This document shows positions 12,251 to 64,000 of a stretch of 64,000 bases of DNA, piece after piece. Numbering within the stretch: the stretch's first letter is position 1; each line of letters opens with the position of its first letter. The stretch covers positions 1-64,000 of the forward strand of contig CAIRTQ010000033.1 in assembly GCA_903881545.1 (NCBI GenBank), given 5' to 3'. Position numbers and translations under genes: made by a program. A model generated the notes under the pieces. It ran no database searches. It saw only the letters and a program-made list of their open reading frames with translations, and was not told the DNA's origin. Origin of the DNA: an uncultured Elusimicrobia bacterium (GTDB lineage Bacteria > Elusimicrobiota > Elusimicrobia > UBA1565 > UBA9628).

Positions 12251-12366
12251 TCGCGGTTCCTGTTAGTTGTGTACGAGCTTGTTGATGGCCGCGTCCGGGC
12301 AATGTCGAATTTCTGGCAGTAGGCGTTATTGTGGTTCGGGGTGTCAGCATCTTTTATGTCACTGAT

Positions 12367-13173: not shown

Positions 13174-13185
13174 GGGCCCTTCCCG

Positions 13186-15047: not shown

Positions 15048-15112
15048 AGTGGGTTGCAGCCGCAATGCTCTCCGACGGTAATGGTTGGCGCGCAAATCTG
15101 CTATCCTGGTAA

Positions 15113-39119: not shown

Positions 39120-40505
39120 ATGAAGATTGCTCTGGTCCTGGCGCCCAACTTGTTTAAGCGCGGCCCTCTGATAGGATTGGCCTACCTGGACGCCTATCTC
39201 AAGGCGCATGATTTCGAGGTTGAGATTTTCGATCTGAACACCGAGATCCAGGTACCGCACGAGGGCGATGAGACTCTGTGGGGCCAGAAGGAGTTCGTAG
39301 ACGACCTCATGTCCGCGAACCAAGGTGCTTGGGACCTGCTGGCCCGCAAGGTGTTGCGGTCCGGCGCCGAGGTCATCGGATTCTCCGCATGGGCGAGCAC
39401 CAGCTTTGCCTCCTTGGGCCTCGCGAGGATCATGAAGCGTGAGGATCCCAAGAGGCTGGTCGTCTTTGGAGGGCCACAATGCAGCTTCTTCCCCGATGAG
39501 TTGCTCTCCGACGGGAGCGTGGATGCGCTGGTCTTCGGCGAAGGCGAGGCAACCCTTCTGGAACTGGCGCGTCAGTATCGGGCGCAGGGCAGAGTCGAGT
39601 CCTGTCCGGGCGCGGCTACCAGACATGACGGCGCGGCCACCCCGGCCACCTTCAGGCCGGAAATCCCGGATTTGGACGCACTGCCCTTCCCCGATTTCTC
39701 CGGATTCCCACTAAAGAAATACTATTTTCCCAACCATCTTCCCATCACTTTCTACCGGGGCTGCGCTAGGCGCTGCGTGTTCTGTAACTCTGCCTCAATA
39801 TGGAAGAAGTTCCGCTCGCGTTCGGCACGGAACATCTTCCGCGAAATGCTCCATCAGAAGAGTCTTTATCCCAATCTCGAGAAGTTCGAGGTGGACGATA
39901 CCGCTCTGAACCTGGATCTGAATGTGATCTCCGAGTTGTGCGACCTGATGTCGGCCCATGATTTTAAAATCCGCTGGGGAGGCGCCGCCATAATTCATCC
40001 GGACCTCGGGCCGGAACTGCTGCGCAAGATGGGGCGAGCCGGATGCAACAGCCTGGCCTATGGTTTGGAAAGTGGCTCGCAGGTGGTGATCGATGGGATG
40101 CGGAAGGGCTTTAGGATCGATGCCGCCGAAAGGAATGTCAGGGATACCCATGATGCCGGTATAGGGGTCGACCTGAATATCGTTATCGGCTTTCCGGGCG
40201 AAACGGAGAGAGAGTTTCAAGAAACCTGTGCCTTCATTCAACGCAATAGGGAATTCATTTCCTTCGTGAGTTTTCCCAGCGAATGTTGGGTAGGCAACGA
40301 CACGTACCTGCACACCCACCCGGAGGATTTCGGGATCGTGCTTGGGGAGTCCGGGCACATGTGGCGTTCTCAAGACGGGACCAATACCCATGAGGTGCGG
40401 CAAGACAGGATCCGCAGGTTCAACGGTATGGTTTCATCCCTCGGGCTCTCCCAGCACAACTACGCTACAGAAGCGGCAAAGCGGCAAGGAGCGGCGCGCC
40501 TATGA
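39120..40505 (+). CDS. B12-binding domain radical SAM protein
   Basis: KIALVLAPNLFKRGPLIGLAYLDAYLKAHDFEVEIFDLN; YRGCARRCVFCNSASIW; GLESGSQVVIDGMRKG; WRSQDGTNTHEVRQDRIRRF. Confidence 0.9.
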   Translation: MKIALVLAPNLFKRGPLIGLAYLDAYLKAHDFEVEIFDLNTEIQVPHEGDETLWGQKEFVDDLMSANQGAWDLLARKVLRSGAEVIGFSAWASTSFASLGLARIMKREDPKRLVVFGGPQCSFFPDELLSDGSVDALVFGEGEATLLELARQYRAQGRVESCPGAATRHDGAATPATFRPEIPDLDALPFPDFSGFPLKKYYFPNHLPITFYRGCARRCVFCNSASIWKKFRSRSARNIFREMLHQKSLYPNLEKFEVDDTALNLDLNVISELCDLMSAHDFKIRWGGAAIIHPDLGPELLRKMGRAGCNSLAYGLESGSQVVIDGMRKGFRIDAAERNVRDTHDAGIGVDLNIVIGFPGETEREFQETCAFIQRNREFISFVSFPSECWVGNDTYLHTHPEDFGIVLGESGHMWRSQDGTNTHEVRQDRIRRFNGMVSSLGLSQHNYATEAAKRQGAARL

Positions 40506-41989
40506 AGATCACCCTGGTGTTATGCCCGAGTTGGGGGATCGAAACGCCTCACCTGGGGATCGCGTTGCTGTCGGCTAACCTTAGAAAGAATGGCTTCGCC
40601 GTGGCTGTGCTGGATCTTAACATTAGATTTCATAACCGGCACAAGGAAGAAGGCCTCTGGAAGTCGGAGGAAGACGTGCATTGGGAGGATCCCCAATCGT
40701 TGAACCGCTTCGTCCAGGAGAATTCCGCCCTCCTTGACTCATTCGCCGATGAGATCCTTGCCACCGGTTCGGAGGTGATAGGATTCTCGGTCTACAGCAC
40801 CACGCAACGGCTTTCCTTGGAACTGGCCCGCCGCATCAAGAGCAAGGACAAAGCCAAGACCATCGTATGCGGCGGACAGATGTGCTATCCCCAGGCCCGA
40901 GCGATGAGTCTCATTCGTGAGGAATCCGTGGATGCCGTGGTCTTGGGCGAGGGTGACGAGGTCATTGTGAGCCTCATGCGCAAGATGGCCGAATCCGGCA
41001 AGCCCGACCATTGCCTCGGCGTGTTATGGAAGGAAAACGGGACAGTCCGTTCCGGAGGCCTGGCGCCCGCCATTGCCGATTTGGACGGCTTGCCTTGTCC
41101 TGATTTCAGTGATTTCAATCTTCGGGACTACGGCAACCCGACACAACTCCCCATGCTCGCCAGCCGAGGCTGCCCGTATCCCTGCGCGTTCTGCAATACC
41201 AAGCTTTTCTGGGGCAAGCACCGTTCCTTGAGCGGCGAGCGGATGTTCCGCGAGGTCCTCCATGATTTGGATTTATATCCGGAGGTGCATTTCATCACCC
41301 TTAATGATCACACGGTCAATGCCGACATGGAGGCTTTTTCCCATTTTGTGGATCTGGCCACGGAACTCAAGGAGAAGAATGGCCACCTGAAAAAGAATTA
41401 CGCCCGGTTGGGATGGAAGGGCGCCGCTGTCATCCGAGAGGAAATGACGAAGGAGTTGATGGAGAGAGTCAAGCGTTCCGGCTGCATCGAGCTGGAATAT
41501 GGTGTCGAGAGCGCCTCGGACAAGGTCAGGAGGATCATGCGAAAGCCTCCGAAGGACATGGGGACGTTAGAAAGGGTGATAAGGGATACCGCCGAGGCAG
41601 GCATCGACGTGCGCGCCAATTTTATGTTCGGATTCCCCGGGGAGACGGTCGAGGATTTCGAACAGACGCTGGAATTCCTGCGCAGGAATAAGGATTATTT
41701 CAGGCAGGTGCATCCCAGTGAGACCTTTTGCCATATCGATCCTGATACATACATGTACAACCATCCGCAGGAATTCGGAATCACTAACTTCCTTACGAAT
41801 TCCCTCTATTGGGAGTCCGCCGAGGATTTGCAGAACATTTATCCCGAAAGATTGAGGCGGCATCAGGTGTTTTGCGATCTGGCGAGTTCTTTGAATATTC
41901 CCCTTAGTCCGGGCGGGCTCAAGATCCGGCTGTATAAACAGCACTTTCTGGATGAGTACTTCAAATACAAGGAGCGGGCCGCAGGTTAA
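40502..41989 (+). CDS. B12-binding domain radical SAM protein
   Basis: KITLVLCPSWGIETPHLGIALLSANLRKNGFAVAVLDLN; ASRGCPYPCAFCNTKLFW; GVESASDKVRRIMRK; ATGA overlap with 39120 gene. Confidence 0.9.
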   Translation: MKITLVLCPSWGIETPHLGIALLSANLRKNGFAVAVLDLNIRFHNRHKEEGLWKSEEDVHWEDPQSLNRFVQENSALLDSFADEILATGSEVIGFSVYSTTQRLSLELARRIKSKDKAKTIVCGGQMCYPQARAMSLIREESVDAVVLGEGDEVIVSLMRKMAESGKPDHCLGVLWKENGTVRSGGLAPAIADLDGLPCPDFSDFNLRDYGNPTQLPMLASRGCPYPCAFCNTKLFWGKHRSLSGERMFREVLHDLDLYPEVHFITLNDHTVNADMEAFSHFVDLATELKEKNGHLKKNYARLGWKGAAVIREEMTKELMERVKRSGCIELEYGVESASDKVRRIMRKPPKDMGTLERVIRDTAEAGIDVRANFMFGFPGETVEDFEQTLEFLRRNKDYFRQVHPSETFCHIDPDTYMYNHPQEFGITNFLTNSLYWESAEDLQNIYPERLRRHQVFCDLASSLNIPLSPGGLKIRLYKQHFLDEYFKYKERAAG

Positions 41990-46628: not shown

Positions 46629-47777
46629 CTACGGCCGGCGCAGGGCTCTATGGTGCTCCTGGACGATTTGTCCGTCGCACTTGTGCCGATGATCCACGTG
46701 CGCTTCCCAATCATTGATGCTGGTGGCATTATGGCGTTGACAGGTCCCTAGGCAGCCGCCACCAGCCCGCAAGCTGCGTCGGATGGCGCGGTAGGCGGGT
46801 CCGTTCCAAATTTCCGCGAAGCTCTTATCGGCCAGCGATTCCTTGAAAGATCCAATCAAATCGCAGGGTAGTATCCTGCCTTCGGGATCCACCACCACCT
46901 GGTGCCACGGCTCGTTGCACCGGGCCGGCGTCCGGGCCGGTGCCGGCCCTTCACCGAACTTTTGCGGGAGGCTGATCTCCATGCCCACCTCCTGTGCCAC
47001 GCTGCGCGCCTCGTCTATGGCGCGGTTGGCCAAGTCCTGCTTGAAGTAGAGCGAAAGGTATTTCTGTGCTGCTTCGCAGATGAAGAAGTAGGTGGCCAGT
47101 ACCCTGTCCGCCCCCAGTTCCTTGGCCAAGCGCACGAAATCCGGCAGCTTGTCCGCATTGAGCGTGGTCATCACGAATTTGAAGTGCACCCGTACTTGGT
47201 CCGTGCCTTGGCGCATCTCCATGAGTTGTTTGATGTTCTTCATGACTCGCTCAAAGGACCAGTACCTCATCATGAGTTCGTGCGTCGACTGGTCGGGCGC
47301 GTGGAGGGACAGCTGGAGCGTGTAGCGGCTTGCCGAGTTCACTATCAGGTCGCATTTCTCATGCGTGAGATACGAGGCGTTGGTGGCGATGCGTTTCTCT
47401 ACATGCGGGAATCGGCCATTGAGATAGCCCAAGAGCGCGGGCGCCTCGGATAGCCCCAATACCTCGCCCGAACCAGAGAAGGTCAGCGTCGCCGCGCGTT
47501 GGAGGACCGGCGTCATCGATGAGTCGAATCGAGCCAGCCAGTCGTCCAACCGGAACGACTCGAAGCCGTCGCCTTGGGAGCAGAACACGCAGCCAGCGTT
47601 GCAGGGCGCATGGATCTGAAGACGCACTGTCTGCGGCGTGCTGGCCAAGATGATGCGGCCGGCTTCGTGCTCCTGCCGGTTGAGATCCACATTCTCCGTT
47701 TGGAGCTGTTCGAGCCGGCGACGCCGCCGGCCGGCGGCGGGCTCGGGCGATCGGGCGGCGGAGGGCATGGCCTTCAT
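46629..47777 (-). CDS. SPASM-type radical SAM protein with SGSGE motif
   Basis: LQIHAPCNAGCVFCSQGDGFESF; TFSGSGEVLGLSEAP; CNEPWHQVVVDPEGRILPCDLIGSFKESLADKSFAEIWNGPAYRAIRRSLRAGGGCLGTCQRHN. Start trimmed from the track ORF. Confidence 0.86.
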   Translation of the reverse strand: MKAMPSAARSPEPAAGRRRRRLEQLQTENVDLNRQEHEAGRIILASTPQTVRLQIHAPCNAGCVFCSQGDGFESFRLDDWLARFDSSMTPVLQRAATLTFSGSGEVLGLSEAPALLGYLNGRFPHVEKRIATNASYLTHEKCDLIVNSASRYTLQLSLHAPDQSTHELMMRYWSFERVMKNIKQLMEMRQGTDQVRVHFKFVMTTLNADKLPDFVRLAKELGADRVLATYFFICEAAQKYLSLYFKQDLANRAIDEARSVAQEVGMEISLPQKFGEGPAPARTPARCNEPWHQVVVDPEGRILPCDLIGSFKESLADKSFAEIWNGPAYRAIRRSLRAGGGCLGTCQRHNATSINDWEAHVDHRHKCDGQIVQEHHRALRRP

Positions 47778-49741
47778 CGCGCGCAGAGCGGGGCGGGTTG
47801 AGCCGCTTCGCCCCCGGCAGTCTCGGATTTGACCAGGCTCATCGCCAGGCGCAGACGTTTGGCCAGCAGGTGCAGAGTGTTCGGGTCCGTCGCCCGTTCG
47901 CCGGCCCAGAAGATGTCGAAATGATCCCCACTCCATTCGATGCGGGCCTTTTCCCCGGTCATGGCTTTGAGGAACGAGGCTGCTCGAAACAGGAAACGCT
48001 CGAGGCTCTGCGGCGCTTGACGGGAGCCCGCCAAGAACTCATCCCAGGTTAAGCCCGCGTCCAAGCGGCTTCGGAGTCCCTCCCAGACCGCCGCTGGGTC
48101 TGCCTTGCCGGCGGCCGCAATCCGGTCGGCCTTGGCCAGGGCCCGGGCGGCGTTCCGGAAGCTCTCCAGATGCGGGAGAGCCCGGATTAGATGCTTGAGC
48201 GTCGGCCCATGGTAAAGGTCCAACTCCAGGTATTCCAAGTAATTCTGCAGGGCCGCTAAGGGCCGGCCTGCGAAATGGTGGTACGCCGCTAGGTTGGAGA
48301 GATGATCCAGGTCAAGGGCGCCGTTGACCCCCTTGTAAGCGTCTATGCCCAGAGTGATGGCCAGGGACCGGAACTTTTTGTAGCGTTCCAAACGCACCGG
48401 ATAGGTATTGGTCCCATCCTGGGACTCCCAGTAGAGATTGTGCGTTGACTCTTCGGAGCGCTGGCGAATTCCCAACTCCTCCTGGTGGTCGATCAGATAG
48501 CTGTGCGCCTCCAGGCTTGTGAAGGTGGCGCTGGCGTAGACCCGGTCCAAGTTGCTTCGGTTGCGGCGCAGGAAATCCAGAGTCATCTGCGCGTCTTCCT
48601 CCGTCTCCCCGGGAAAGCCGAACATGAAGTTGCCGGTCACGATGATGCCGGCATCATGGGTGTCCCGCAACACCCGTTCGGCCACGTCGGGAGAGTAGTT
48701 TTTGTTCATGGCCTTGAGCACGCGCTCCGAGCCGCTCTCGATTCCGTAGATGATGTCGTGGCAGTTGGCGGCGCGTAGATCTTTCAGGACTTCCAGCGTC
48801 ATCTCCGGGCGTATGACCGCGTTGATCTTCCATCCGATCAGATCGTTCTTCCACCGGTCTTCGGCCACGGCTGCGCTTACGAGCCGACTAAACTTCTGCA
48901 GGGCCCGGACGTCGCCGTTGGCTGTAATGTCGTAGAACTCCCTATGGCGACGGCTAGGGAACAGGCGCAGGTTGTGCATGACCTCCGCGAAGATGCGGTC
49001 TCCGCCCATATGCGCATAGCCGGGCCAGAAGGAGTGCGCGCTGCAGAACCGGCACTGCCAGACGCACCCTCGGCTGGCCGCGATCGGGATCCGCTCCGGG
49101 TCGGTATAGAGCTCCATGGGAAATCCCGTGAAGTCCGCGAATGGGATATCGTCTAGATTGCGTACCGGCACAGCCGCGCCGGAGGTGAACGGTGCTCCGT
49201 CGCGCCAAACCCAGGCCCCCGGCAGCGGTTCTAGCTCGCCCGTGCTGTCAAAGCGCTTCAATATCTGGGGGAATACCACGTCGCCCGCGCCTTGCACCAC
49301 CATGTCCACGCAGGGCTCTCCGAGTAGGGCTCTGATCTTGTTACCAAAATAGAAATAGGGCCCCCCAAGGATAATCTTGACCTTGGGATCGGCGGCCTTG
49401 AGGCGCCGCGCCAGCTCCAGCGCGGCCAGATGGGAGCCGCTTTGCACAGAAATGCCAATGACGCGGGCGCCGGTCTTGAGGATGTCCTCCAAGAAGCGCT
49501 CCACCTGCTGAGAATTATCCTGGAAGAAGGTGGCAACGAACGCCGGCTGGTTCCAGAAATGGAACTGCTCCCAGACCCAGAGGCTTTCATATTTCTTCAC
49601 CCGTTCCTTCCAGAGCAGGATGTTGAGGTCAAACACCGCCGGCTCGAAACCAGCCGCGCGAGCGCAACCCGCCAATTGGGCTAAGCCCAAGGGTGGGTCT
49701 GTGATGCCCCAGACTGGAGGCTGGATCAAGGCGACTTTCAT
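47774..49741 (-). CDS. B12-binding domain radical SAM protein with C-terminal extension
   Basis: MKVALIQPPVWGITDPPLGLAQLAGCARAAGFEPAVFDLN; ASRGCVWQCRFCSAHSFW; GIESGSERVLKAMNK; WESQDGTNTYPVRLERYKKF. Confidence 0.9.
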   Translation of the reverse strand: MKVALIQPPVWGITDPPLGLAQLAGCARAAGFEPAVFDLNILLWKERVKKYESLWVWEQFHFWNQPAFVATFFQDNSQQVERFLEDILKTGARVIGISVQSGSHLAALELARRLKAADPKVKIILGGPYFYFGNKIRALLGEPCVDMVVQGAGDVVFPQILKRFDSTGELEPLPGAWVWRDGAPFTSGAAVPVRNLDDIPFADFTGFPMELYTDPERIPIAASRGCVWQCRFCSAHSFWPGYAHMGGDRIFAEVMHNLRLFPSRRHREFYDITANGDVRALQKFSRLVSAAVAEDRWKNDLIGWKINAVIRPEMTLEVLKDLRAANCHDIIYGIESGSERVLKAMNKNYSPDVAERVLRDTHDAGIIVTGNFMFGFPGETEEDAQMTLDFLRRNRSNLDRVYASATFTSLEAHSYLIDHQEELGIRQRSEESTHNLYWESQDGTNTYPVRLERYKKFRSLAITLGIDAYKGVNGALDLDHLSNLAAYHHFAGRPLAALQNYLEYLELDLYHGPTLKHLIRALPHLESFRNAARALAKADRIAAAGKADPAAVWEGLRSRLDAGLTWDEFLAGSRQAPQSLERFLFRAASFLKAMTGEKARIEWSGDHFDIFWAGERATDPNTLHLLAKRLRLAMSLVKSETAGGEAAQPAPLCAR

Positions 49742-51096: not shown

Positions 51097-51100
51097 GATA

Positions 51101-51841: not shown

Positions 51842-54800
51842 TTAGGCCTCCACCGCCAGCTTGCGGGCCGCCGCCAGGATGGCGGCGCGAGCTTGGGGGC
51901 GGTTGGTGATATGGCAAGATAAGTCATCCACGTTGTAGCCCGCGTAGCGTGCGCAGCGGCGGCACCAGGGATGCGGCTTGCCTTGCGCCATGCTGCAGCG
52001 CAGGCTGCGATAGAAAGGGGAATTCCATATGGCCCCGATTTCCGAATCTTTGATGTTCCCGATGTGCTCGCCCCAGCGACAGCAAGGCAGCACCGAGCCC
52101 TGAAGTTCCACATAGATGTGCTGCCAGGGCTCAGTGCAGAGCGACTGCGCGGCCGCGCCGCCGCCAAACAGGGGGGGCAGGTCCACGCGGAAGGGCCGGT
52201 CCGGGGCGCGTTGGCGCAATTGATCTGCCGTCCGGGCAGCTGTCTGCAGGGCCGCGTTGGCCTGGCCCTGATGGAAGAAGCAGGAGAGCGGGAGTTGCTT
52301 GGGCGTGAAGACCTCCACATGCAGGCCGCGCACGCTTTGCGCGCCCAAGTCCCAGGCCAGACGGATGAAGTCGGGGAGGTCCGCAATGTTGCGGCTATTG
52401 AGCACGTTGACGAGTTCCAGGTGCAGCCGGCCGCTCGCTTGGCTGCGGTCGCGCCATTTGGATAAGCTCCGCAAGTTGTCGATAATCTCCTGGAAACGGC
52501 CTTTGAGACCGGTCAGTTCTTGATGCAGGCCAGCGCGGGAAGAGTGCAAGGAGACTTGAACCGCGTAGCGTCCCTGCAACAGGCGTTCCACCACCGAGGG
52601 CCGCAGGGGTGTTCCGTTGGTGGTCAATATTTTTTCGGTCTCGGGCAAGGATCTGTTGATGTAATCAAGGAACGCTTCGGCTTTCGGCATGAGCAAGAGC
52701 TCCCCGAAGCCGGTAAAGGTGATCTTCTGCGCGTTGCGCAGGAAAGAGCCCATCCGGACCTCGAAGAAATCTCGGTAGGTCTCCAAGGTGAATCGGGGAT
52801 AATCGCCTTCGGGACAGAAGATGCAGCGGGCGTTGCAGGCCTGGTGCGCGCCGAGGGTCACCAGCACCGGCGTCGAGCGCAGGCGCTGCTCCCCCGCCGC
52901 TGTTTCGCGCTGGTTGAGGACCATGTTGAATCCGCGCGGAGAGAACTCTTGCGGCGCCGGCGGAAACGCCGGCCCGCGCGCTGGCCGGCCGGCCTTATCG
53001 TAGCAACGGCGCAGGGCTTCCCGGAGCGTTTCATCTTGGGATTCTAGGCGCCAGGAGCGGCGATAGCAGAGGATGGCGCGGGGCAGGTCCGCCTCCCTCT
53101 CGTAGTACGCGCCCAGCAGAAGCCACTTGTCCGGCTTGCTACGGAGCACTCCTGAAGTCTCAGGCAGGCCCAAGGCCAGGGCCAGGCGGCAAAATTCTTC
53201 ATAGCGGCGGAAGCGTTCCGGATAGTCGTTGCGACCGCCATCTGATTTCCAGTAAAGGTGATGCTCCGCTCCGGTGATGCCAAACTCCTTCGGATGGTTG
53301 TAAAGCCGCGTGTTCTTGTCGATGACGCAGAACGATTGGCTGGCCAGGACCGAATCCACGAACGGCCGCGCTCGCTTGAGAAGGTCTAGCGTCCGGCTGA
53401 AGTCCCGCTTGGTCTCACCCGGGATGCCGAACATGACGTTGATCTGCGCCTTGATCCCTGCCGCGTGAGCGGCGCGCAATGCGCGCAATGCCTGGGCGTT
53501 GGTGAAGCGCTTGTTCATGGCCGCGCGCACTTTGGGCGATCCGGATTCGATGCCAAAGCCTAGCCAGCGGCAGCCCGCGCGCGCCATCTTGGCCAGCAGC
53601 CGCTCATCCATGCCGGGCACCACGATGGCCTGGCCTTCCCAGGTCACGGGCAGGCCTTGCGCGATGACCAGGTCGCAGAAGCGCTCGAGCTCGCGCAATC
53701 TGCCGTTGAGCAATGAGCCGATGAAATAGAAGTGGTTGACCTGCGGATATAGCTGCATCTGATGGCTGATCTCAGCGAAGATTCGTTCCCCGCTCATGGA
53801 GCGGAATCGGGTCCAGAACTGCCACTCGCTGCAAAAATGGCAGGAGCGGGCGCAGCCGCGGCTGTCCATGATCTCCAGGCGCCGCGGGTTCCGGTAGCGG
53901 CCCTCGCGCATTTGCGCAGTGAAGTCGGAGTAGTCCGGGAAGGGTAGGCGGTCCAGGTCCATGATGGGTGCGCGGTCGCCGCCGTCCACGATGCCGGAAG
54001 GCCCGCGGGCCACCAGTCCGGGCAGTCCCAAAATGGATTTCCCAGCGCGAAGCTGGTCCAATAGCTCGCGCAAGGTCTCCTCACCTTCGCCGACGGCTAC
54101 CGCGTCCACGCGCGGGTCAAGCGCTAGGTCTTGGCCCCGTTGTTCCCGCGCGCAGCGCGGCCCGCCGAAGACCACCAGCCGGGACGGATCGGCGTGCTTG
54201 ATCCGCCCCGCGATTTCGAGGCTGGCGAGTACCGAAGTCGTGTGGGTCGTGAATCCGATCACCTTGGCGCCGCTGGCCAGGATGCGGTTGACGCAAGAGT
54301 TCACCGCGCTGTCCTGGGATTCCATGAGACGCCCCACCAAGGCGGGATTCTCCCAAAATGAATAGAGGTCTTTGTCGTCCCAGACGGCCCGTTGCCCGGC
54401 CGCGGCATGATAGAGCTCGTTGTTGAGATCGAAGCAGGCAGCCTCGTGGCCATTCTGCCGCGCATAGGCGGCTAAGGCGGCCAGGGAGAAAGGGGGGCAT
54501 TCCTGGCCCCAGCCCGGACACTGCACCAAGGCGACTTGGGCGGTACGCTTCTTCGGCGTGGGCGCGGCAACGGCTGAATCGTCTGATGCCACACGGAGGG
54601 GAGTATCCTTCTTGCAGCCTAAGGCCACGATCCGGTCCAGGACTGGATTGGCGGTACAGAGCAGCCAGCAGTGGCAGCGGCCGCGCGCGACATTGTCCCT
54701 TTCCTGGCGCGCTCGAGGCGACTGCCAGACTTCGTCGAACGGGGCCTCACGCACACTGCCGACGGTACGTTGTTTGTTGACCGGGCAGAAGAACAGGCTG

Positions 54801-55750
54801 CCCTCCGGGTCCAGCATGGCGTAGCGCTGACCAGCCAGGCAATCCGGGAAGAACCGTCGCGGCATCCGAATGTACTCCTTGAGGTAATGCCAGTAGAGGA
54901 TCCGGCTCAACAGCCCGACGGATTCGGATTCGCGTCCTTGCAGCAGACGGGGCAAGATGCCTTCGCGCCGGCATATGTCGTCCATGACCAGATCAATCTG
55001 GCCGGTGATCGCCGCGATCTGTGCCGGTTTCCAGAGGAAGGCCGGAGCCTCGGGAACCCCCGTATGGTTGACCGCCATCTGCGCCCCGAACCAAACGCCC
55101 TGCTCCGTCGCGAAGCGATAGGCCGGCCATAGTTGCCGATAGTTGTGTGGAGTGATGGTTAAATTGAAACTGAATGTAATGTCAGGGAATTCTCGACGCA
55201 ACATTCCCATCGATTCGACCAGCCCTGCGAAGGCCCCGGAGCGGCCGCGGATCAGGTCATGCGCGCCCCCCACGCCGTCCAAGGAAGACCCCAGCCATAG
55301 CCGTTGAACTCCGGCCGCGCGCAGCTGCGTCAAGCGGCGGCGCAACAGCGTGGGATCGCCGAAATGGGAAAGCACTCCCAGGGAAGCCTTGGGGAAGCGC
55401 CGGCAGAGCAGGGCCGCGATCTCAGGCAGGTCCTGGCGCAGGCAGGGTTCGCCTCCGGTCAGGACGATCGTCTCTACGCCGTCCAGCGTCCTTGCCTCGC
55501 CGAGGATGTGCTCCAATTCGGCGGCACCCAATTCTCGGCCGGTCGCCGCAGGTTCGGCGCGATGCCGGCGCCAGTGATGGCACATGAGGCAGCGCATATC
55601 GCAGCGCCGGGTCAGTTCCAGATGCAGTTCTCGGATGGGAGATGGGATGCTCCCCTCGTCTTTCAGCCGCGCCTCGCCGCGCCGGGCGATTTCCGCCAAG
55701 AGGCTCTCGGTCCAGCGCAGTGCGTCCAAGGCCAAGGCGCGTCGGCTCAT
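51842..55750 (-). CDS. Triple-module fusion: rSAM/SPASM + B12-binding rSAM + rSAM/SPASM (about 1302 aa)
   Basis: Three CxxxCxxC motifs in one open frame: LELTRRCDMRCLMCHHW; DSRGCARSCHFCSEWQFW (after VALVQCPGWGQECPPFSLAALAAYARQNGHEAACFDLN); GAHQACNARCIFCPEGD; terminal SPASM CTEPWQHIYVELQGSVLPCCRWGEHIGNIKDSEIGAIWNSPFYRSLRCSM. Start at ATG 55750 overlaps upstream stop. Confidence 0.85.
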   Translation of the reverse strand: MSRRALALDALRWTESLLAEIARRGEARLKDEGSIPSPIRELHLELTRRCDMRCLMCHHWRRHRAEPAATGRELGAAELEHILGEARTLDGVETIVLTGGEPCLRQDLPEIAALLCRRFPKASLGVLSHFGDPTLLRRRLTQLRAAGVQRLWLGSSLDGVGGAHDLIRGRSGAFAGLVESMGMLRREFPDITFSFNLTITPHNYRQLWPAYRFATEQGVWFGAQMAVNHTGVPEAPAFLWKPAQIAAITGQIDLVMDDICRREGILPRLLQGRESESVGLLSRILYWHYLKEYIRMPRRFFPDCLAGQRYAMLDPEGSLFFCPVNKQRTVGSVREAPFDEVWQSPRARQERDNVARGRCHCWLLCTANPVLDRIVALGCKKDTPLRVASDDSAVAAPTPKKRTAQVALVQCPGWGQECPPFSLAALAAYARQNGHEAACFDLNNELYHAAAGQRAVWDDKDLYSFWENPALVGRLMESQDSAVNSCVNRILASGAKVIGFTTHTTSVLASLEIAGRIKHADPSRLVVFGGPRCAREQRGQDLALDPRVDAVAVGEGEETLRELLDQLRAGKSILGLPGLVARGPSGIVDGGDRAPIMDLDRLPFPDYSDFTAQMREGRYRNPRRLEIMDSRGCARSCHFCSEWQFWTRFRSMSGERIFAEISHQMQLYPQVNHFYFIGSLLNGRLRELERFCDLVIAQGLPVTWEGQAIVVPGMDERLLAKMARAGCRWLGFGIESGSPKVRAAMNKRFTNAQALRALRAAHAAGIKAQINVMFGIPGETKRDFSRTLDLLKRARPFVDSVLASQSFCVIDKNTRLYNHPKEFGITGAEHHLYWKSDGGRNDYPERFRRYEEFCRLALALGLPETSGVLRSKPDKWLLLGAYYEREADLPRAILCYRRSWRLESQDETLREALRRCYDKAGRPARGPAFPPAPQEFSPRGFNMVLNQRETAAGEQRLRSTPVLVTLGAHQACNARCIFCPEGDYPRFTLETYRDFFEVRMGSFLRNAQKITFTGFGELLLMPKAEAFLDYINRSLPETEKILTTNGTPLRPSVVERLLQGRYAVQVSLHSSRAGLHQELTGLKGRFQEIIDNLRSLSKWRDRSQASGRLHLELVNVLNSRNIADLPDFIRLAWDLGAQSVRGLHVEVFTPKQLPLSCFFHQGQANAALQTAARTADQLRQRAPDRPFRVDLPPLFGGGAAAQSLCTEPWQHIYVELQGSVLPCCRWGEHIGNIKDSEIGAIWNSPFYRSLRCSMAQGKPHPWCRRCARYAGYNVDDLSCHITNRPQARAAILAAARKLAVEA

Positions 55751-56913
55751 GCGGGACCTCTGCGGAAGAGCTGTTCGAGCGCGGATGTCGGCCCCAGGCA
55801 CCACTTGCGCAGCAGAAGGTTCATGTCGGCCTCCGCATCCCGCGCCGCGGGCGGCGGTTCGGTAGGCGGAAAGGTCAGGATATCGGTGGCGATGAGCAGG
55901 CGCTGGTTGAGTTGGCGCAGACGCAGGCAATAGTCGAATACCGCGGCGGCCCAGGTCTGGTAGCGTTCATCGAGGCCGCCGGCCAGGGCCGCGGCGTTGC
56001 GCCGCAGCATCCAGCAAGACGAATCCAGGTAATGCGCGCATTCGCGGTGGCTCCGCCCGGCGCTCAGACGAGCCGAGGCCAATTGTCTCTGAGAGCCAGC
56101 GCGGGATGGCTGGCCCCGCACCGCGCCCACCGCGGCCAGGGGGGCCTCTCCTTCCAGATATTCTTTCATGCGCTCCAGGCTCGCGGGGATCAGACCGGTG
56201 CCGCCCCGCACCGACAGCACGCATCGGTAACGCGCGCGCTGGAGTGCCGCGTTCCAGCCGACGATGCCGCCGCGTCCCCGGGGCACGGTGATCCATTCGC
56301 TGGGGAAGGGCAGCCGGTCCAGGCGCCTACGCAGATTCTGGTCTGAGCCCAGGACCAGGACGCTGATGCCGTCGCGGCCCGCGTCATCGAATTCCCGGGA
56401 GGGGCGCGGCTGGGCCGGCAAGAAGCGGCCTCCCAGTTTTTCGCAGGCCTGAACTGCGGTCCGAGCCATGACCCAGTCGTGCGGCTGTGTGCCCTGGTGG
56501 TCTGGCCATGGGTCGGAGAGCAGGACCAGGTCCGAAAGCTGGTTCATCCCCGGAATCTGCTCGCGCCAAGCCGGCGAAAAATTCTCACGGCGCAGGAGGC
56601 AAACGCGCGGAGTCGTGGGGGACCATCCGGCCACGCGATGTAGGTTCTCGATACTGGCCGCCTCGCCGACGGCCAGTATGACCTCGACCCGCGCGTCGAA
56701 AAGGGCTTCTTTGACGTGCTCGAAGAAATCCCTTTGCGCGCGAGGCGGGAAACGCATCCCGCCACGGCAGAGTCCGGGGCCGCCCGGGTCTAGTGCCAGC
56801 GCGACGCCCCACCGGGCGCCGAGCTCGTGCAGGAGCTCCGAGGTCCGCTGGCCGTCGCCGGTCTTCAATTCGTTGAGCCACCCCGGCACCAGCGCCAGCA
56901 CCCTATACGACAT
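55747..56913 (-). CDS. Glycosyltransferase-related protein (GT2-like C-terminal half)
   Basis: MSYRVLALVPGWLNELKTGDGQRTSELLHELGARWGVALALD...; PRGRGGIVGWNAALQRARYRCVLSVRGGTGLIPASLERM; SCWMLRRNAAALAGGLDERYQTWAAAVFDYCLRLRQLNQRLL. Track ORF start (57324) rejected. Confidence 0.65.
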   Translation of the reverse strand: MSYRVLALVPGWLNELKTGDGQRTSELLHELGARWGVALALDPGGPGLCRGGMRFPPRAQRDFFEHVKEALFDARVEVILAVGEAASIENLHRVAGWSPTTPRVCLLRRENFSPAWREQIPGMNQLSDLVLLSDPWPDHQGTQPHDWVMARTAVQACEKLGGRFLPAQPRPSREFDDAGRDGISVLVLGSDQNLRRRLDRLPFPSEWITVPRGRGGIVGWNAALQRARYRCVLSVRGGTGLIPASLERMKEYLEGEAPLAAVGAVRGQPSRAGSQRQLASARLSAGRSHRECAHYLDSSCWMLRRNAAALAGGLDERYQTWAAAVFDYCLRLRQLNQRLLIATDILTFPPTEPPPAARDAEADMNLLLRKWCLGPTSALEQLFRRGPA

Positions 56914-58153
56914 CGGCTTTCTCCTGAGGCGAGCGCGCCAGCACTTCATCGTACACCGCGCCCAGGCGCGGGGCGAGCTGCGACCAATCATAGCGGCGGC
57001 GCACCAGCTCCACCCCCCGGGCTCCGAGTTCGCGGCGCAGAGGGGCAGAGTCGAGCAGGCGCAGTACCTGAGCGGCGAAGAGCGCCGGGGAGTCGGCTGA
57101 AAGGACGTCGCGGTCGGGCGTGAGTTCGAGGCCGCGTAGGGAACGCCGCGTTGCCACCACCGGCAGGCCCGAGGCCAGAGCCTCCAGAATCTTGCCCTTG
57201 ATGCCCTCTCCCAAGCGTACAGGCGCCACAAACACGGTGGCTTGCTCCAGGTACGGCTTGACGTCCGGGACCGTCCCCGTGACCGTGACGCCGGGGATAT
57301 CCCGGGCCAAGTTAAGCACCGCATTGGTGGGGCTTGAGCCCACGGCGAAGAACCGCGCCTGAGGCCGCACTTTTAGGATCGCGGGCCAGATCTTCCGGCA
57401 GAAAAAGACCACCGCGTCTTCGTTGGGGTAGTGGGGGTAGTGGCCTACGTAAAGCAGGGTGGGCGCCGCGCCGGTGGGGGGCTCTGGGGCCGGGCGGAAA
57501 TGCGTCGTGTCCACGCCCGTAGGGACCACTTGGATTTTGTGGGCCGCGATGACTTTGGAAAGGCGGTGATGGTCCGTGGGAGTCATGACCACGACCCGGT
57601 CGAACCAAGTCCCGGCCTGGCGCACGAATGCCACGCGGCGGCGCCATTGCCGGATCTGTAGGAATTTGCGCCAGCCCACCATCTCCCGGAAGTAGGAGCC
57701 GAAGAACGATATGGAACCGGCGTCGTGCTGAGTCCAGATGCGGGGCACTCCGGCGAGCTGGCGAGCGTAGAGCGCCGTGAGGTCGAACTCGGCGTGCACC
57801 AGGTCCGGCCGCTCTTCTGCGACGATCTCCGCTACCCTCTGAGCCGTCTGCGGGTCGAAAAAGCGGGCGACGTCATCGGGGAGGGCCAAACGGTCGACGC
57901 GAAGCGAGCGGGGTTCCGGAGGCAGCGTGAGCCAATGGATGCGCTCGAAGATGGGCCGCAAGTAGTGGTGCTCCCACAGGAGCTCTTGCGCCGTTTGATG
58001 CGCGTCGCGCGGGATGTCGCGCGGGAGGAAGGTGGCCAGGGAGAAACGGAACCGTTGGCCCAGAAGCTGGCACAAGGTGTGGATGCGCTTGCATCCACCA
58101 TCGAAGGGGTAGGGCGGGGAAGGCGTCAAAAGCAGCACATGCGGCTTCATCAT
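56903..58153 (-). CDS. Family 1/4 glycosyltransferase (GT-B)
   Basis: KPHVLLLTPSPPYPFDGGCKRIHTLCQLL; VVPTGVDTTHFRPAPE; VFVAPVRLGEGIKGKILEALASGLPVVATRRSLRGLEL. Confidence 0.9.
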   Translation of the reverse strand: MMKPHVLLLTPSPPYPFDGGCKRIHTLCQLLGQRFRFSLATFLPRDIPRDAHQTAQELLWEHHYLRPIFERIHWLTLPPEPRSLRVDRLALPDDVARFFDPQTAQRVAEIVAEERPDLVHAEFDLTALYARQLAGVPRIWTQHDAGSISFFGSYFREMVGWRKFLQIRQWRRRVAFVRQAGTWFDRVVVMTPTDHHRLSKVIAAHKIQVVPTGVDTTHFRPAPEPPTGAAPTLLYVGHYPHYPNEDAVVFFCRKIWPAILKVRPQARFFAVGSSPTNAVLNLARDIPGVTVTGTVPDVKPYLEQATVFVAPVRLGEGIKGKILEALASGLPVVATRRSLRGLELTPDRDVLSADSPALFAAQVLRLLDSAPLRRELGARGVELVRRRYDWSQLAPRLGAVYDEVLARSPQEKADVV

Positions 58154-60480
58154 GCGCTCCGCTGCACCGAGTCGTAGCAAGGATGATATTCGCGGTGAAA
58201 ATCCTTGCCGTTGCCCATATAATCGTTGTGTGACAGCCGAGTCCGGCAGCGGTGGTCGGTCCATACGGCCGTATCCCGGCAGCTGGAAAAGGTATTGCCT
58301 GTCGCGCGCAGGCGCGATCTTCGTAATGCGAGTACGCCGTTCTCATTGTCGGTGAACACCGCTCCGTCCATTCGGATGCGGCAATCATCCTCGGCCATGA
58401 TGGCGGTCTTGGCTTGGCGGCTGAACGATATCCCCCGTAGGCGCGCCCGCGAGGAATGGCTGCAGCGGATCGCCTCGCGGTTATCCTGCCAGGAGCCACC
58501 CATGGCCTCGATCTGCGAGGAATTCTGAGTCCATACGCCGGTGCCGTTGCCTTCGATTCGGACCCCGCAAAGGAGGGCCCGCGACCGTTGCAGAGTCTCC
58601 ATGCCCACGTTGTTGCGTTCCAAGCGGCAGCCCCTGAGGCGTAGACGCGCCCGGCCCGAGGCAAAGATTGCGGACTGGCCAGCGTGATCGAGCCAACGGC
58701 TCGAACGGCCGAGGAAGGTCGAGTGACCGAGCATCGTCGCCGCTGAGCCGCGACAGCGGGAATAGGTCCCGCAGAAGTCGGATACGACGGCGCAACCTTC
58801 AGTGAGAATGTCCGTGTTGCAATCGCAGGCCCGGCAGCGCCGCAGGCGCACGCGGGCATCGTCGTGCGCCCAGACTGCGGCCTTGCTGGATTCAGTGAAG
58901 GAGCAGTCATGCAAGACAGCGGAGGCGCCTCCTCCCCAAGCGGTGGCGCCCTGTCCGCCTTGGAAATCACAATGGCGAAACTCGGCCCGGCAGAAGTCCA
59001 CGCCCAGAGCGGCAAAGTCGGCAGCGGGATCGAAACGGGCGTGGCGGATGCTGGCCCGGGAGCGGCCGAGCAGTACGATGCCGCCCCAGGGGGCCCCAGT
59101 GAAGTGCACTTTGTGGCCCGGTTCGCCGGCGACATCCAACTCTCCATAGACCATTAGCGCGCAGCGGCCGCGGCGGGGGAGCTGAGCCCTGGTCCCAAAA
59201 GCCAACCGGTCTGCCGCCCAGCCCGCAGCGGCTGTTGTTTCCGACCGGACCAGCGTCCCCGGCAAGATGCTCAGCCTGCATCCGGCCGCAATCACCATGG
59301 TTTCGGAAAGAGTGACCTCACCTTCCCAAACGATGTCGCGGCCGCGATGCGGAGCGGGACATCCAGCGTCCAGCCGTAGCCATGTGCCTTCAATCCGAGC
59401 CCGCAAGGCGCGGCAACGGCGCGGGAAGGCCAAGCCACATGCGCGATACGCTACAGTAAGGAATCTAAGCGTATGCCGGATGGCGGGCCGCCGCAGAGCA
59501 ATCCATGCTTCTTTGGCCCGGTCGCGGATCCAGGCGGCGGTCTGGAGGGTGCGGTCGCGCAGAAAGCGATAGGCGTCGCGTAGAGCAATGCAGGCATCGA
59601 ATATCCGGTCTCGGGTCCAGGCGCCGGACTGGAGACAGGCGTCCCGCAGGGACCGGTAGGCATCGCGCAGAATAATGCAGGCATCGAATATCCGGTCTCG
59701 GAGCCAAGCCCGGGTCTTCAGAAAACTGTCGCGCAGGAAACGGCAGGCATCAATGGTGCGGTCGCGAGTCCAGGCGCAGGTCTGAAGAAAACGGTCGCGC
59801 AGGAAGCGGTAGGCGTCGCGCAGGGCCAGTCCGGCGTCAATGATGCGGTCGCGGGTCCAGGCGGCGGTCTGGAGGGTGCGGTCGCGCAGGAAATGGCATG
59901 CATCAATGATGCGGTCGCGAGTCCAGGCGCAGGTCTGAAGAAAACGGTCGCGCAGAAAGCGGTAGGCGTCACGTAGTGCTAGTCCGGCGTCGATGATGCG
60001 GTCGCGGGTCCAGGCGGCGGTCTTCAGGCAGAACCCCCGGATTATTTCGGCGCATAGCAATCCAAGCACGACCGTTGAGACAATCCCTATGCCGCAGTGG
60101 CAGAGCCTACGGAATGGGCCTTGCAGGCTTATCCAGCGCCCTTGTCCACGCCGGAAGGACTCGACGCGGCCCGCGATGCATGAGCTGGGAACCGCCTTGT
60201 CCAGGATGATGGACCGATCTCCCTTCGTCCAAAAGACATGACCACCCGTACGGTCGGCCTTCCAAACGATGCGATGCGCCACGAAATTGCGGCGCTCTAT
60301 ATCGACATAGACGACGATGTCTCCCAGGAGCAATTGGTTGGGAGCGATGCGGCGAAAGCGCAGGGCGTCTCCGGATCGCAATAGAAACCGCATGGAGTTT
60401 CCGGAGAACGGCATCTCTCGCTCCGCGTAGTGGCCACGCGGGTCTTGTGGCTCATCCGAATATATAGGAGCGGTGGTCAT
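58150..60480 (-). CDS. S26 signal-peptidase-like N-terminus + TM + tandem amphipathic repeats + beta-helix domain
   Basis: MPFSGNSMRFLLRSGDALRFRRIAPNQLLLGDIVVYVDIERRNFVAHRIVWK...FWTKGD (S26-like SGxSM, GDIVVY, HRI, TKGD); TM GIVSTVVLGLLCAEI; repeats AWTRDRIIDAGLALRDAYRFLRDRFLQTC; C-terminal beta-helix rungs. Confidence 0.75.
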   Translation of the reverse strand: MTTAPIYSDEPQDPRGHYAEREMPFSGNSMRFLLRSGDALRFRRIAPNQLLLGDIVVYVDIERRNFVAHRIVWKADRTGGHVFWTKGDRSIILDKAVPSSCIAGRVESFRRGQGRWISLQGPFRRLCHCGIGIVSTVVLGLLCAEIIRGFCLKTAAWTRDRIIDAGLALRDAYRFLRDRFLQTCAWTRDRIIDACHFLRDRTLQTAAWTRDRIIDAGLALRDAYRFLRDRFLQTCAWTRDRTIDACRFLRDSFLKTRAWLRDRIFDACIILRDAYRSLRDACLQSGAWTRDRIFDACIALRDAYRFLRDRTLQTAAWIRDRAKEAWIALRRPAIRHTLRFLTVAYRACGLAFPRRCRALRARIEGTWLRLDAGCPAPHRGRDIVWEGEVTLSETMVIAAGCRLSILPGTLVRSETTAAAGWAADRLAFGTRAQLPRRGRCALMVYGELDVAGEPGHKVHFTGAPWGGIVLLGRSRASIRHARFDPAADFAALGVDFCRAEFRHCDFQGGQGATAWGGGASAVLHDCSFTESSKAAVWAHDDARVRLRRCRACDCNTDILTEGCAVVSDFCGTYSRCRGSAATMLGHSTFLGRSSRWLDHAGQSAIFASGRARLRLRGCRLERNNVGMETLQRSRALLCGVRIEGNGTGVWTQNSSQIEAMGGSWQDNREAIRCSHSSRARLRGISFSRQAKTAIMAEDDCRIRMDGAVFTDNENGVLALRRSRLRATGNTFSSCRDTAVWTDHRCRTRLSHNDYMGNGKDFHREYHPCYDSVQRSA
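59485..60030 (-). repeat. In-frame tandem repeat encoding about 29/22-aa alternating amphipathic units (51 aa/153 nt superunit)
   Basis: Near-identical TGATGCGGTCGCGGGTCCAGGCGGCGGTCT copies at about 59841 and about 59994 (153 nt apart), with further diverged copies. Confidence 0.85.
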
Positions 60481-60655
60481 GGCTCAGGCCATGCCGCGTT
60501 GGGGTGAGATGGGTTCTTCCGCATCATGAGATCGAACGGGCGGCCTTGCCATGGTGGACTAATGGACCAATAGATATCCTGCCTACCCATTGCCAGTCCG
60601 AGGGCAGTGGGTTTATGACGGAACCGAGAGTTCTAGCCCCGGGTCTCGGCCGTGC

Positions 60656-61111: not shown

Positions 61112-61140
61112 GTTGAAGTCTCCTTAAATGAATTTAAATT

Positions 61141-61170
61141 ATTATACAAATTAGCAGGATTCTGCGCCAA
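61141..61170 (-). promoter_or_regulatory. Sigma70-type promoter upstream of the 60656..61111 gene
   Basis: On the minus strand: TTGGCG (61170-61165), 18-nt spacer, TATAAT (61146-61141); about 30 nt upstream of the ATG. Confidence 0.65.
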
Positions 61171-61184
61171 GCGTAGACTTGTCG

Positions 61185-61283
61185 CTACACGAACATCGTG
61201 GAAACGCCCAACTTGGTGGTCAATTTGAATTTCTTCAAGATTGGTTTTTTATAGATTTTCTTTGGCTCGGGTTTCTTCTTCAT
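61185..61283 (-). CDS. Candidate RiPP precursor peptide, 32 aa: MKKKPEPKKIYKKPILKKFKLTTKLGVSTMFV
   Basis: Uninterrupted ATG..TAG; SD AAGGAG 6 nt upstream of ATG; starts 12 nt after the stop of the GT2-PqqD gene; YxxPxL motif (YKKPIL) as in lasso-peptide leaders bound by PqqD/RRE domains. Missing from the ORF track. Confidence 0.6.
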   Translation of the reverse strand: MKKKPEPKKIYKKPILKKFKLTTKLGVSTMFV

Positions 61284-61295
61284 CTGGCGCTCCTT

Positions 61296-62483
61296 CTATC
61301 TTTGTGATAAGAAAGCGATCAGGTGGTCGTCTTTCAACTCCTGCAGCAAGGTGTCGATGTCTTTTCGTGCTTCCTCTGATTGCGCCGCGCCGGATGCTTC
61401 GACTTCTTTGATTATCTCCTCCTCGGTCTTTCCTTCCGACAAAAGCTCCCAGACCCTCGCGCCGACGCCGTGCAACTGATAACCGAAGCCGCTCTGCAGG
61501 TTGACGGCCTTGACGTCCCCGGTCCTGCCCCACCGCCAAACGAGCCGCTTCGGAACGAACGTCAAAGGGGCGAAAGCCCGCCTTTTCCCAAACCATTCTT
61601 CCAGAGAGCCGTATATCCAGGTGAGCAATCCCATGAAGGAAAAGATCAGCCGGAAAGAATAGACGCTCAGGTTCTTGGCGCGCTCCACTTGGAAGACGCT
61701 TCTTCCAGCCAGAAGGGCATTCTTGAACGTGTCGGCCAGCATGCGCCGCCCGGACAGCGACAGACCGATTATGCCTTCGTATTTTCTTATGAGGCAGTAC
61801 TGCCAATAGACATAATGGAGGAATACTTCCGGCAATTGCGCGATCTTATCGCGATGTTTGTGAAAGACGACGGCGTTGCGCATATGCCGCAGTTGATGTC
61901 CCTTCAGATTGATGCGCCATATGAGGTCGGTGTCTTCTCCTGCGGCGAAATATTCGTCGAAAGAACCGACCTGGCTGAATAGTTCTCGGCGGCAGGCTAG
62001 GTTGCAGGTGGCGAACAGTGGCTCGGTGAAATAGTTCTCTTCGTTGATGTCATCGTTCCCGTTGTTCTGGTTCTGGTGCTTTTGGAACCAGTAGAAGGCC
62101 TTCTCGATGGTGTTGGCAGGCCGGTAGGATCGCGTGCTTCCGCCGCAGCCGCCGACATTCGGGGTGGAGAATCCTTTGACCAAATTCTTTATCCAGTGCC
62201 TGCCTACCACGCAATCGGCATCCGTGAAGGCGATGATGTTCCCGGAGGCGATCTTCAGGCCTGCATTCCGGGCTGCGCTGCGGCCTTTTCTGGGCTCGAA
62301 TACATAGCGTACCGGGTATCTTTTTATGATTTCGGCGCTCGAATCCGTCGAGCGATTATCGATGATGATGAATTCCAGAAGTTCCTTGGGATAATCAAGC
62401 GCCATCAAGGAATCCAGGCAGAAAGGCAGCATCTCCTCCTCATTATAAACAGGAATTAGGATGCTGACGGTCGGCAGGGGCAT
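61296..62483 (-). CDS. Family 2 glycosyltransferase with C-terminal PqqD domain
   Basis: GT2: VSILIPVYNEEEMLPFCLDSLMALDYPKELLEFIIIDNRSTDSS; C-term PqqD: RLVWRWGRTGDVKAVNLQSGFGYQLHGVGARVWELLSEGKTEEEIIKEVEASGAAQSEEARKDIDTLLQELKDDHLI. Confidence 0.85.
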   Translation of the reverse strand: MPLPTVSILIPVYNEEEMLPFCLDSLMALDYPKELLEFIIIDNRSTDSSAEIIKRYPVRYVFEPRKGRSAARNAGLKIASGNIIAFTDADCVVGRHWIKNLVKGFSTPNVGGCGGSTRSYRPANTIEKAFYWFQKHQNQNNGNDDINEENYFTEPLFATCNLACRRELFSQVGSFDEYFAAGEDTDLIWRINLKGHQLRHMRNAVVFHKHRDKIAQLPEVFLHYVYWQYCLIRKYEGIIGLSLSGRRMLADTFKNALLAGRSVFQVERAKNLSVYSFRLIFSFMGLLTWIYGSLEEWFGKRRAFAPLTFVPKRLVWRWGRTGDVKAVNLQSGFGYQLHGVGARVWELLSEGKTEEEIIKEVEASGAAQSEEARKDIDTLLQELKDDHLIAFLSQR

Positions 62484-62576
62484 GTCGCTTTAGGAAATTA
62501 GGCATCCCGCTCGGCTGCGCGGGCATGGTCGTCAGTCTATCTTTTTTATGGGCAAGAATCAAAAAATGGGTGGGGG

Positions 62577-63974
62577 CTAGTGGACCGTGGGAAAGCCGAT
62601 GGTGCTGCACATCAGGCTCTGCTGCAAGAGTTCATACAACGGCTTTCCCCACTTCCTGATGAAGATGTCTCTATTCGTTTTTCTATAGTCCAGCAAGACT
62701 CCGGGCGCATATCCTTTCGAGCCGTAATGATGGATGAACACATCATTGACGCAAAAGGAGCGGAACCCGGCGATCCTTGCCCGCAGGCAGTAATCGTAAT
62801 CCTCAAAAGGTCCCCAGGCGAACTGTTCGTCCAAGAGCCCGACGGCTTTGACCACTTCCCTCTTGATGAGAAGGCAAAAGCCCGTTAGTGCGAAGACTTC
62901 GAACCAATCGCCCAGATGCGCTAGGTGGCGCATCCGCGACCAGCGGATCATGTCTGCCAGAGTGCGATACGGGCCGGGGGCTGTCATTTGCACCCCGTAG
63001 ATGGAATTCGTGCGGGGGCCTACCAATCCGATGGCGCGGCTGCTCTGCGCGCAGGCAATCATCCGGTCAAGCCACAAGGGCGTGACCACGGTGTCGTTAT
63101 TGAGCAAGAGTAGGTATTTGCCCCGGGCCTTCTTGATTCCCTGGTTGCAACCCGCGGCAAAACCGCGGTTATCCGGGTTAAGGATGACCGTGGCTCCGGG
63201 GACGGATTCCAGATACTTCGCGGTGCCGTCCGTCGAGCCATTGTCTATCAGCAGGAGCTCGTAGGGTTTATGGGTGTATTTCACGATACTCTTGATGCAG
63301 CGCTTGGAATACTGCAGGCCGTTGTGATTGAGGATTATAATGCTGGTTAAATCATTCTTGGCATGCGTTTCCGGTGTCGGCCCTATGTCTGCGAATAAGT
63401 CCGGCAACCGCTGTAGGGCGAGCCGGCCCGAAGGCTTGCTCAGCAGTGGGACGGTCTCTACGCGAAGCGTGGGGTTTTCCTGGTGCAGGAGGCCCTTGTC
63501 TTCTGCGGTCTCGGTGATGACAAGATCCGCCTGCGCGTACGCAGTCAGAAGCTGGAGGGCGAACCCCTCCTGCTGAAACAGGCGGGAGAGCGCAGCGCGG
63601 GGCAGACGGTGGTAGATGTCCAAAGTCCCGGCAAAGACCACGATCTTGCTATGAGGGGCGAGGGCCCTCACATCCCGCATCAAGGCGCTCATCTGTACGG
63701 ATTCTCTGACAAAGATGGCGACGGCTGCGAAGGCATGCCGCAGAAGATTCCGGTGCAGTAGGCGTCGCATGTCGGGGCCATCAAGCAGGCGTATCCCCGC
63801 GTCGCTCAGCTGACGTCTGTATGCCGGATTATTGAAGAACGAATGCAGCGGCGAGATGAGATAGACGTCGTAGCGACGCAGCAGCATCCTCGCTGCGGCT
63901 TCGATGTGATCGGCCGGCTCCGAGGCAAGAAGCAGTATTTTGGCTTTCGTGGCACGCCGTTTCGATGTTTTCAT
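62577..63974 (-). CDS. Family 2 glycosyltransferase with N-terminal extension
   Basis: TSIIILNHNGLQYSKRCIKSIVKYTHKPYELLLIDNGSTDGTAKYLESV; FAAGCNQGIKKARGKYLLLLNNDTVV; FAWGPFEDYDYCLRARIAGF; extra N-terminal domain of about 200 aa. Confidence 0.87.
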   Translation of the reverse strand: MKTSKRRATKAKILLLASEPADHIEAAARMLLRRYDVYLISPLHSFFNNPAYRRQLSDAGIRLLDGPDMRRLLHRNLLRHAFAAVAIFVRESVQMSALMRDVRALAPHSKIVVFAGTLDIYHRLPRAALSRLFQQEGFALQLLTAYAQADLVITETAEDKGLLHQENPTLRVETVPLLSKPSGRLALQRLPDLFADIGPTPETHAKNDLTSIIILNHNGLQYSKRCIKSIVKYTHKPYELLLIDNGSTDGTAKYLESVPGATVILNPDNRGFAAGCNQGIKKARGKYLLLLNNDTVVTPLWLDRMIACAQSSRAIGLVGPRTNSIYGVQMTAPGPYRTLADMIRWSRMRHLAHLGDWFEVFALTGFCLLIKREVVKAVGLLDEQFAWGPFEDYDYCLRARIAGFRSFCVNDVFIHHYGSKGYAPGVLLDYRKTNRDIFIRKWGKPLYELLQQSLMCSTIGFPTVH

Positions 63975-64000
63975 TCTAGGCGATTTGGTCCGTCATCCGA

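Follow-up and report, generated by a model that had tools for sequence, protein, structure and literature searches.

Genes around a 32-residue peptide

The window, by which we mean the whole 64,000-nucleotide stretch of uncultured Elusimicrobia DNA that was analysed, carries near its end a minus-strand gene for a GT2 glycosyltransferase of 395 aa with a C-terminal PqqD/RRE domain (61296..62483; PF00535, 8.8e-33; PF05402, 1.8e-11), here called GT2-PqqD. It is followed on the same strand by a very short gene (61185..61283) that encodes a precursor-like peptide of 32 aa, MKKKPEPKKIYKKPILKKFKLTTKLGVSTMFV. Read along the minus strand, the TAG stop codon of GT2-PqqD (61298-61296) is directly followed by a Shine-Dalgarno sequence, AAGGAG (61295-61290), a 6-nt spacer and the ATG of the peptide (61283-61281). 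A preliminary description of this DNA had given the sequence, coordinates, strand, AAGGAG with its spacing and the 12-nt distance from the GT2-PqqD stop, all of which proved exact, and the matches above bear out its recognition of the neighbour as a GT2 enzyme that ends in PqqD. Judging by the spacing and the Shine-Dalgarno sequence, GT2-PqqD and the peptide probably share one transcript, with the peptide translated from its 3′ end.

The peptide comprises a Lys-rich N-terminal part (residues 1-10), the motif Y11-x-x-P14-x-L16, which we infer to be its docking motif for an RRE (RiPP recognition element), and a short tail, FKLTTKLGVSTMFV. Its first 30 bases occur once in its own genome, and neither of the other two PqqD loci in that genome yielded a convincing YxxPxL small ORF. 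In 1.11 Mb, made up of the window and 80 other loci and read on both strands, 110 ATG-initiated ORFs of 25-45 aa are equipped with a Shine-Dalgarno sequence, and the pattern Y..P.[LIVMF] is present in a single one of them, the window peptide.

Downstream, a protein of 151 aa with a good Shine-Dalgarno sequence is encoded at 60656-61111 on the minus strand; it matched no family, and none of the 342 genomes of the phylum yielded a relative, so that it was left out of the system. Between it and the peptide lies a promoter-like site (61170-61141), of a kind that is no commoner here than in shuffled sequence. On the same strand, 58150..60480 encodes a candidate leader peptidase, in which an N-terminal archaeal/SipW-type signal-peptidase-like domain (TIGR02228, 2.3e-9, below the cut-off) is combined with a C-terminal beta-helix (PF13229). 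Repeats such as AWTRDRIIDACxxLRD lie between these two parts. On the other side of GT2-PqqD, the minus strand carries a second GT2 glycosyltransferase of 465 aa (62577..63974) and the 3′ end of a second GT2-PqqD gene (63976..64000), most of which lies outside the window (63976-65184 of the contig) and whose product is 45% identical to the first. The preliminary description contained neither the signal-peptidase-like domain nor the second GT2-PqqD past the window end, nor the additional YxxP peptides, described below, that accompany PqqD genes elsewhere in the phylum.

Conservation of the peptide and its linkage to GT2-PqqD

Using the GT2-PqqD protein as query against the 342 genomes of the phylum, we found homologues at E<=1e-45 in three: its own, G324 and G326. 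Reading downstream of these genes, prior to any search with a peptide profile, revealed related peptides in both other genomes, MEKKKAKKKVYKKPVLKKYQLPKKIGATAIFI at 12 nt 3′ of the GT2-PqqD stop in G324 and MEKKNNEKKKMYKKPLLKKYKLGNKLSVSPTMFLTAC at 186 nt downstream in G326. A profile of the three peptides returned the same 3 of 342 genomes at E of about 1e-17, with the next match at 0.009; because these genomes supplied the seed, what the search tells us is how far all other genomes fall behind. Peptide and GT2-PqqD homologues thus coincide in the same three genomes. Since PqqD as such is common (139 of the 342 genomes), the peptide is associated with this particular GT2-PqqD rather than with PqqD generally. 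Among the 80 loci listed by a contig scan with the GT2-PqqD alignment, which made use of two generic GT2 patterns, no further homologue of the peptide was found.

The two homologous peptides are 50-69% identical to that of the window, and the Tyr, Pro and Leu of the motif together with flanking Lys residues are invariant in all three. The tails are alike as well, ending in FV, FI and FLTAC, and in this they are unlike the variable cores of RiPPs. For all pairs pN/pS is 0.24-0.26, with synonymous sites saturated, and the alignment scores lie 10-13 SD above those of shuffled peptides. These values bear on the possibility of a chance ORF, to which we give virtually no credence: short ORFs abound (180 with 25 aa or more overlap 50000-64000), but two distant genomes have homologues of this one in the corresponding position, its pN/pS is about 0.25, its z against shuffles is 10-13, and nothing comparable appears in the 80 other loci. 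The chance reading was rejected by this conservation. The check for homologues in related genomes that the preliminary description had proposed came out in favour of the ORF, with selection in place of drift. On this sequence evidence, 61185-61283 on the minus strand is a real conserved gene that is linked to the GT2-PqqD gene, and its peptide is under purifying selection (pN/pS about 0.25).

PqqD domains and the enzymes common to three loci

The PqqD/RRE domain of the window's GT2-PqqD corresponds to residues 327-389 in the PF05402 match (61317..61505, minus strand). We built an RRE profile from the seven PqqD domains of the three loci, which include two standalone PqqDs in G324, one in G326 and none in the window's own cluster, where the second GT2-PqqD is present instead. 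Its best matches were TbiB1 (5v1u/5v1v; E 9.6e-17), TfuB1, 9x90 (PbaB1) and 9x8z (LppB), all of which are RREs with solved structures that recognise YxxP/WxxP leaders. The assignment of YxxPxL as a motif of the type found in lasso leaders, made in the preliminary description, agrees with this result and with the invariance of its Tyr, Pro and Leu.

LppB is the RRE of the linear polyphosphorylated peptides (LPP) of Bacillota, a system that also includes LppA, the SipW-type peptidase LppS and LppK (PMC13381572). Because the seven domains align with LppB without gaps, the residues of the pocket can be read across. In all seven domains, Asp occupies the position of LppB's Tyr-binding D70 (D375 in the window protein). 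N33 of LppB maintains the kink at Pro and is required for binding there; Asn is found at this position in each of the three standalone PqqDs and in the fused domain of G324, and the remaining fused domains have His, Glu or Ser; the window's own RRE has His there and Gly at the position of LppB Y60. Judged by family, the PqqD domains are likely to bind the peptide, although the pocket of the window protein departs from LppB at the N33 and Y60 positions. An AlphaFold2 model of GT2-PqqD computed from four sequences reached a pLDDT of 52 and was kept out of the evidence.

A lasso precursor would account for the YxxPxL motif and the lasso-type RRE. The stretch that follows L16, with about 16 residues, is however too short for a macrolactam plus a threaded tail, none of the three peptides has an Asp or Glu after the motif (the macrolactam acceptor, at core position 7-9), and no B2 protease (PF13471) scored above the cut-off in the three genomes. 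A non-systematic look at the proteins scanned gave no Asn-synthase-like macrolactam synthetase. We rejected this reading for want of the acceptor residue and regard it as next to impossible. What stands of the earlier proposal is the candidate precursor: the gene is conserved and tied to GT2-PqqD, and a precursor role is the best explanation of the peptide.

Common to the three loci are GT2-PqqD, the peptide, the second GT2 (36-37% identical in both related loci), B12-radical-SAM and radical-SAM/SPASM proteins and the signal-peptidase-like domain. The candidate modifying enzymes in the window are encoded on the minus strand at 51842..55930, with three radical-SAM stretches of which the middle one is B12-binding and TIGR03975-like, and at 47774..49741, a B12-binding radical-SAM protein that is TIGR03975-like below the cut-off. 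The former is a single ORF of 1362 aa, its stretches being of the SPASM, B12 and SPASM types in this order. TIGR03975, a RiPP C-methyltransferase subfamily, is the best NCBIfam match, below cut-off, of the B12-radical-SAM proteins of these loci. Membership in the pathway is uncertain for two B12-radical-SAM-type proteins on the plus strand (39120..40505 and 40502..41989), both with BLASTP matches to proteins of G324 and G326, and for a small radical-SAM/SPASM-type protein from a tandem set (29955..30938, minus strand), which is 32-33% identical to the products of G324 2019-2915 and G326 15636-16490. Distances from the peptide to the radical-SAM genes reach 30 kb, and some of these genes are on the opposite strand. 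From 17026 to 50000, both strands hold an unusually dense radical-SAM array, with many proteins of the small type that carry W-D-x-x-x-x-C-N-Y-x-C-x-Y-C.

In the signal-peptidase-like domain, Ser, His and Asp are invariant across the three loci (S29, H69 and D94 in the window protein) and correspond in the triad alignment to S29, H68 and D93 of LppS, mutation of which abolished cleavage (PMC13381572). In G324 and G326, this domain runs into a C-terminal part that appears methyltransferase-like by eye, in place of the beta-helix.

Sibling peptides and a proposed pathway

Related Lys-rich YxxP peptides of 34-51 aa are encoded in 20 further genomes, mostly beside PqqD. One family, which came to light in the flanks of the best 30 PqqD loci of the phylum (MKPTKSQPRKDKKYQKPKVKAHGKISEVASAFKP and relatives; 16 genomes, E below 1e-13), lies directly 3′ of standalone PqqDs and consists of Lys-rich peptides of 34-49 aa with the consensus YxKPx[VIL]KxHGK[IL]S[ED]VASAFKP and an almost invariant tail, HGKISEVASAFKP; examples are L169 9978 (plus strand, 34 aa), L172 9124 (plus) and L173 9613 (plus). 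In the loci examined, its neighbours are radical-SAM, acyltransferase-like and GT2 proteins, a P-loop protein related to that encoded at 13956-15140 of the window, and a relative of the peptidase/beta-helix protein of 58150-60480. A third type (MAKKTRLSAGKNAKRKKYSKPRLTRHGELSKTALAHSY and similar; KKY[SV]KP[RK]LT[RK]HG[EA]LS[KQ]TALA[HR]SY) occurs in two genomes of the window's own genus and one of its own family (L184 3685, L186 11174 and L187 3407, all minus strand), in two of which the contig also bears a PqqD gene at a distance of 4-10 kb. Because only the KKYxKP segment aligned when the profiles of the two peptide families were compared (probability 15%), we call them siblings by architecture and not by proven descent.

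Genome G175 carries two tandem peptides after PqqD (L185 463 and 665, plus strand), MKKPDKKDQKNKKYQKPKIKQHGKITTVAGIIVRE and MKKPDKKDQKDKKYQKPKIKQHGKITKVAGADDDPVR. Their N-terminal parts are almost the same, whereas their C-terminal parts differ, ending in VAGIIVRE and VAGADDDPVR. This pattern of a constant N-part with different C-parts supports the reading of the YxxP group as RiPP precursors. At the locus itself, a conserved peptide gene adjoins the RRE-GT2 in three genomes, and the cluster has an RRE domain (PF05402) whose nearest solved structures are YxxP-binding RREs.

We therefore consider it probable that the peptide is a short linear RiPP precursor, which would dock on the RRE via YxxPxL, serve as a substrate of the glycosyltransferases and radical-SAM enzymes and perhaps be trimmed by the peptidase. 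By homology, the PqqD/RRE domains would bind the peptide through YxxPxL, a docking step that probably works as in lasso and LPP systems; one RRE is fused to the glycosyltransferase, so that enzyme would carry its own docking site. The neighbouring genes suggest that the short C-terminal part, with its Ser/Thr, Lys and hydrophobic residues, is what the glycosyltransferases, the B12-radical-SAM and the radical-SAM/SPASM enzymes modify, and by analogy with LPP the SipW/LppS-like domain may cut off the Lys-rich leader (PMC13381572). Counting from Tyr by the lasso (-17) or LPP (-16) leader length would leave, in this borrowed register, 5-6 residues as the core of each of the two peptides with 32 aa. 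At such lengths the core candidates would be VSTMFV and ATAIFI in two genomes and about 10 residues, VSPTMFLTAC, in the third. As the most likely product we envisage a linear peptide that is glycosylated, C-methylated or both, and the pathway is most likely a previously undescribed peptide-tailoring system.

The mycofactocin system (MftA, MftB, MftC and MftF), in which a short peptide is processed by a PqqD-type RRE, radical SAM and a GT2, resembles the one proposed here. The mycofactocin precursor ends in Val-Tyr. A precursor of a cofactor or small molecule in the style of PQQ or mycofactocin, from which a radical-SAM enzyme would rearrange a few tail residues before excision and glycosylation, fits the similar short tails of the three peptides and the almost invariant sibling tail, both of which would suit a fixed product, and the best NCBIfam match of GT2-PqqD is MftF (TIGR03965, 2e-46). 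That match, however, scores 158.9 bits where the cut-off is 280, the peptides lack a C-terminal VY, the RRE is part of the glycosyltransferase, the radical-SAM enzymes are of the B12 type and the C-termini of the tandem G175 peptides differ; we consider such a precursor unlikely. The peptide could also be an adaptor instead of a substrate, docking on the RRE and steering or activating the glycosyltransferase towards another acceptor, e.g. a surface polysaccharide. Its very short, Lys-rich and uniform sequence, the nearby glycosyltransferases and a polysaccharide-type ABC transporter elsewhere in the window would agree with such a role, which we nevertheless hold to be quite improbable given that the peptide is conserved together with radical-SAM enzymes and a peptidase-like domain, that the YxxP peptides known at RREs are precursors, and that the C-termini of tandem siblings vary.

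Among known systems, the RiPP precursor that we favour shares with LPP a YxxP leader and a PqqD-type RRE, docking being predicted here, a SipW/archaeal-type peptidase with Ser/His/Asp, nearby glycosyltransferases and the lack of lasso machinery among the genes found. LPP precursors have 35-200 aa and the leader consensus YxxPxVLxHQxIxFETxxS (PMC13381572), of which only YxxPx[LV] is in common with the peptides described here; moreover, the RRE is here fused to GT2, radical-SAM enzymes are many and the peptidase domain is joined to a beta-helix. LPP systems have an HprK-like kinase by which the core is polyphosphorylated. A possible further likeness to them, an HprK-like P-loop gene with an ABC transporter (12367-15140), lies about 46 kb from the peptide. 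This minus-strand group of an ABC-2 transporter pair and a P-loop protein may belong to the same system; the P-loop protein (13956-15140) is without a Pfam/NCBIfam match and by eye has GGGKS and DD, resembling HprK-like precursor kinases. With lasso systems that have discrete B1 RREs (TbiB1, TfuB1, PbaB1), the locus shares the YxxPxL leader motif and the RRE family; it differs in the macrolactam acceptor, the B2 protease and the tail length discussed above.

Fusions of an RRE to a PF00535 glycosyltransferase have been noted as new combinations in putative RiPP clusters, and the passages on these fusions describe no precursor or product (PMC7470986; PMC12710340). As far as those passages go, the domain combination is the same and several of the clusters contain radical-SAM genes, whereas a conserved precursor candidate and a gene set are given here. 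One such fusion family thereby gains a likely substrate, a predicted docking motif and a conserved gene set, which makes it possible to test directly whether a fused RRE brings about leader-dependent glycosylation of a peptide.

More tentatively, and with our doubts somewhat outweighing our confidence, the locus and its siblings may represent a new RiPP class, defined by very short linear peptides, a glycosyltransferase with its own RRE, B12-radical-SAM modification and cutting by a beta-helix-fused signal peptidase. If so, about 35-residue YxxP precursors would form a phylum-wide group that annotation easily misses; precursor candidates of about this length, readily omitted from gene annotation, are in any case contained in the PqqD loci of the phylum. 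A further peptide, MPKERKPYKKPELKEVKLQLEEQILASCRASRTSTVNYRTSRRTCANCRNTYSAS (L170 8686, minus strand), adjoins a B12-radical-SAM/TPR/PqqD fusion (9749-12493, minus strand), and near it is encoded a 621-aa protein with NTP_transf_5, GNAT and S24-like stretches.
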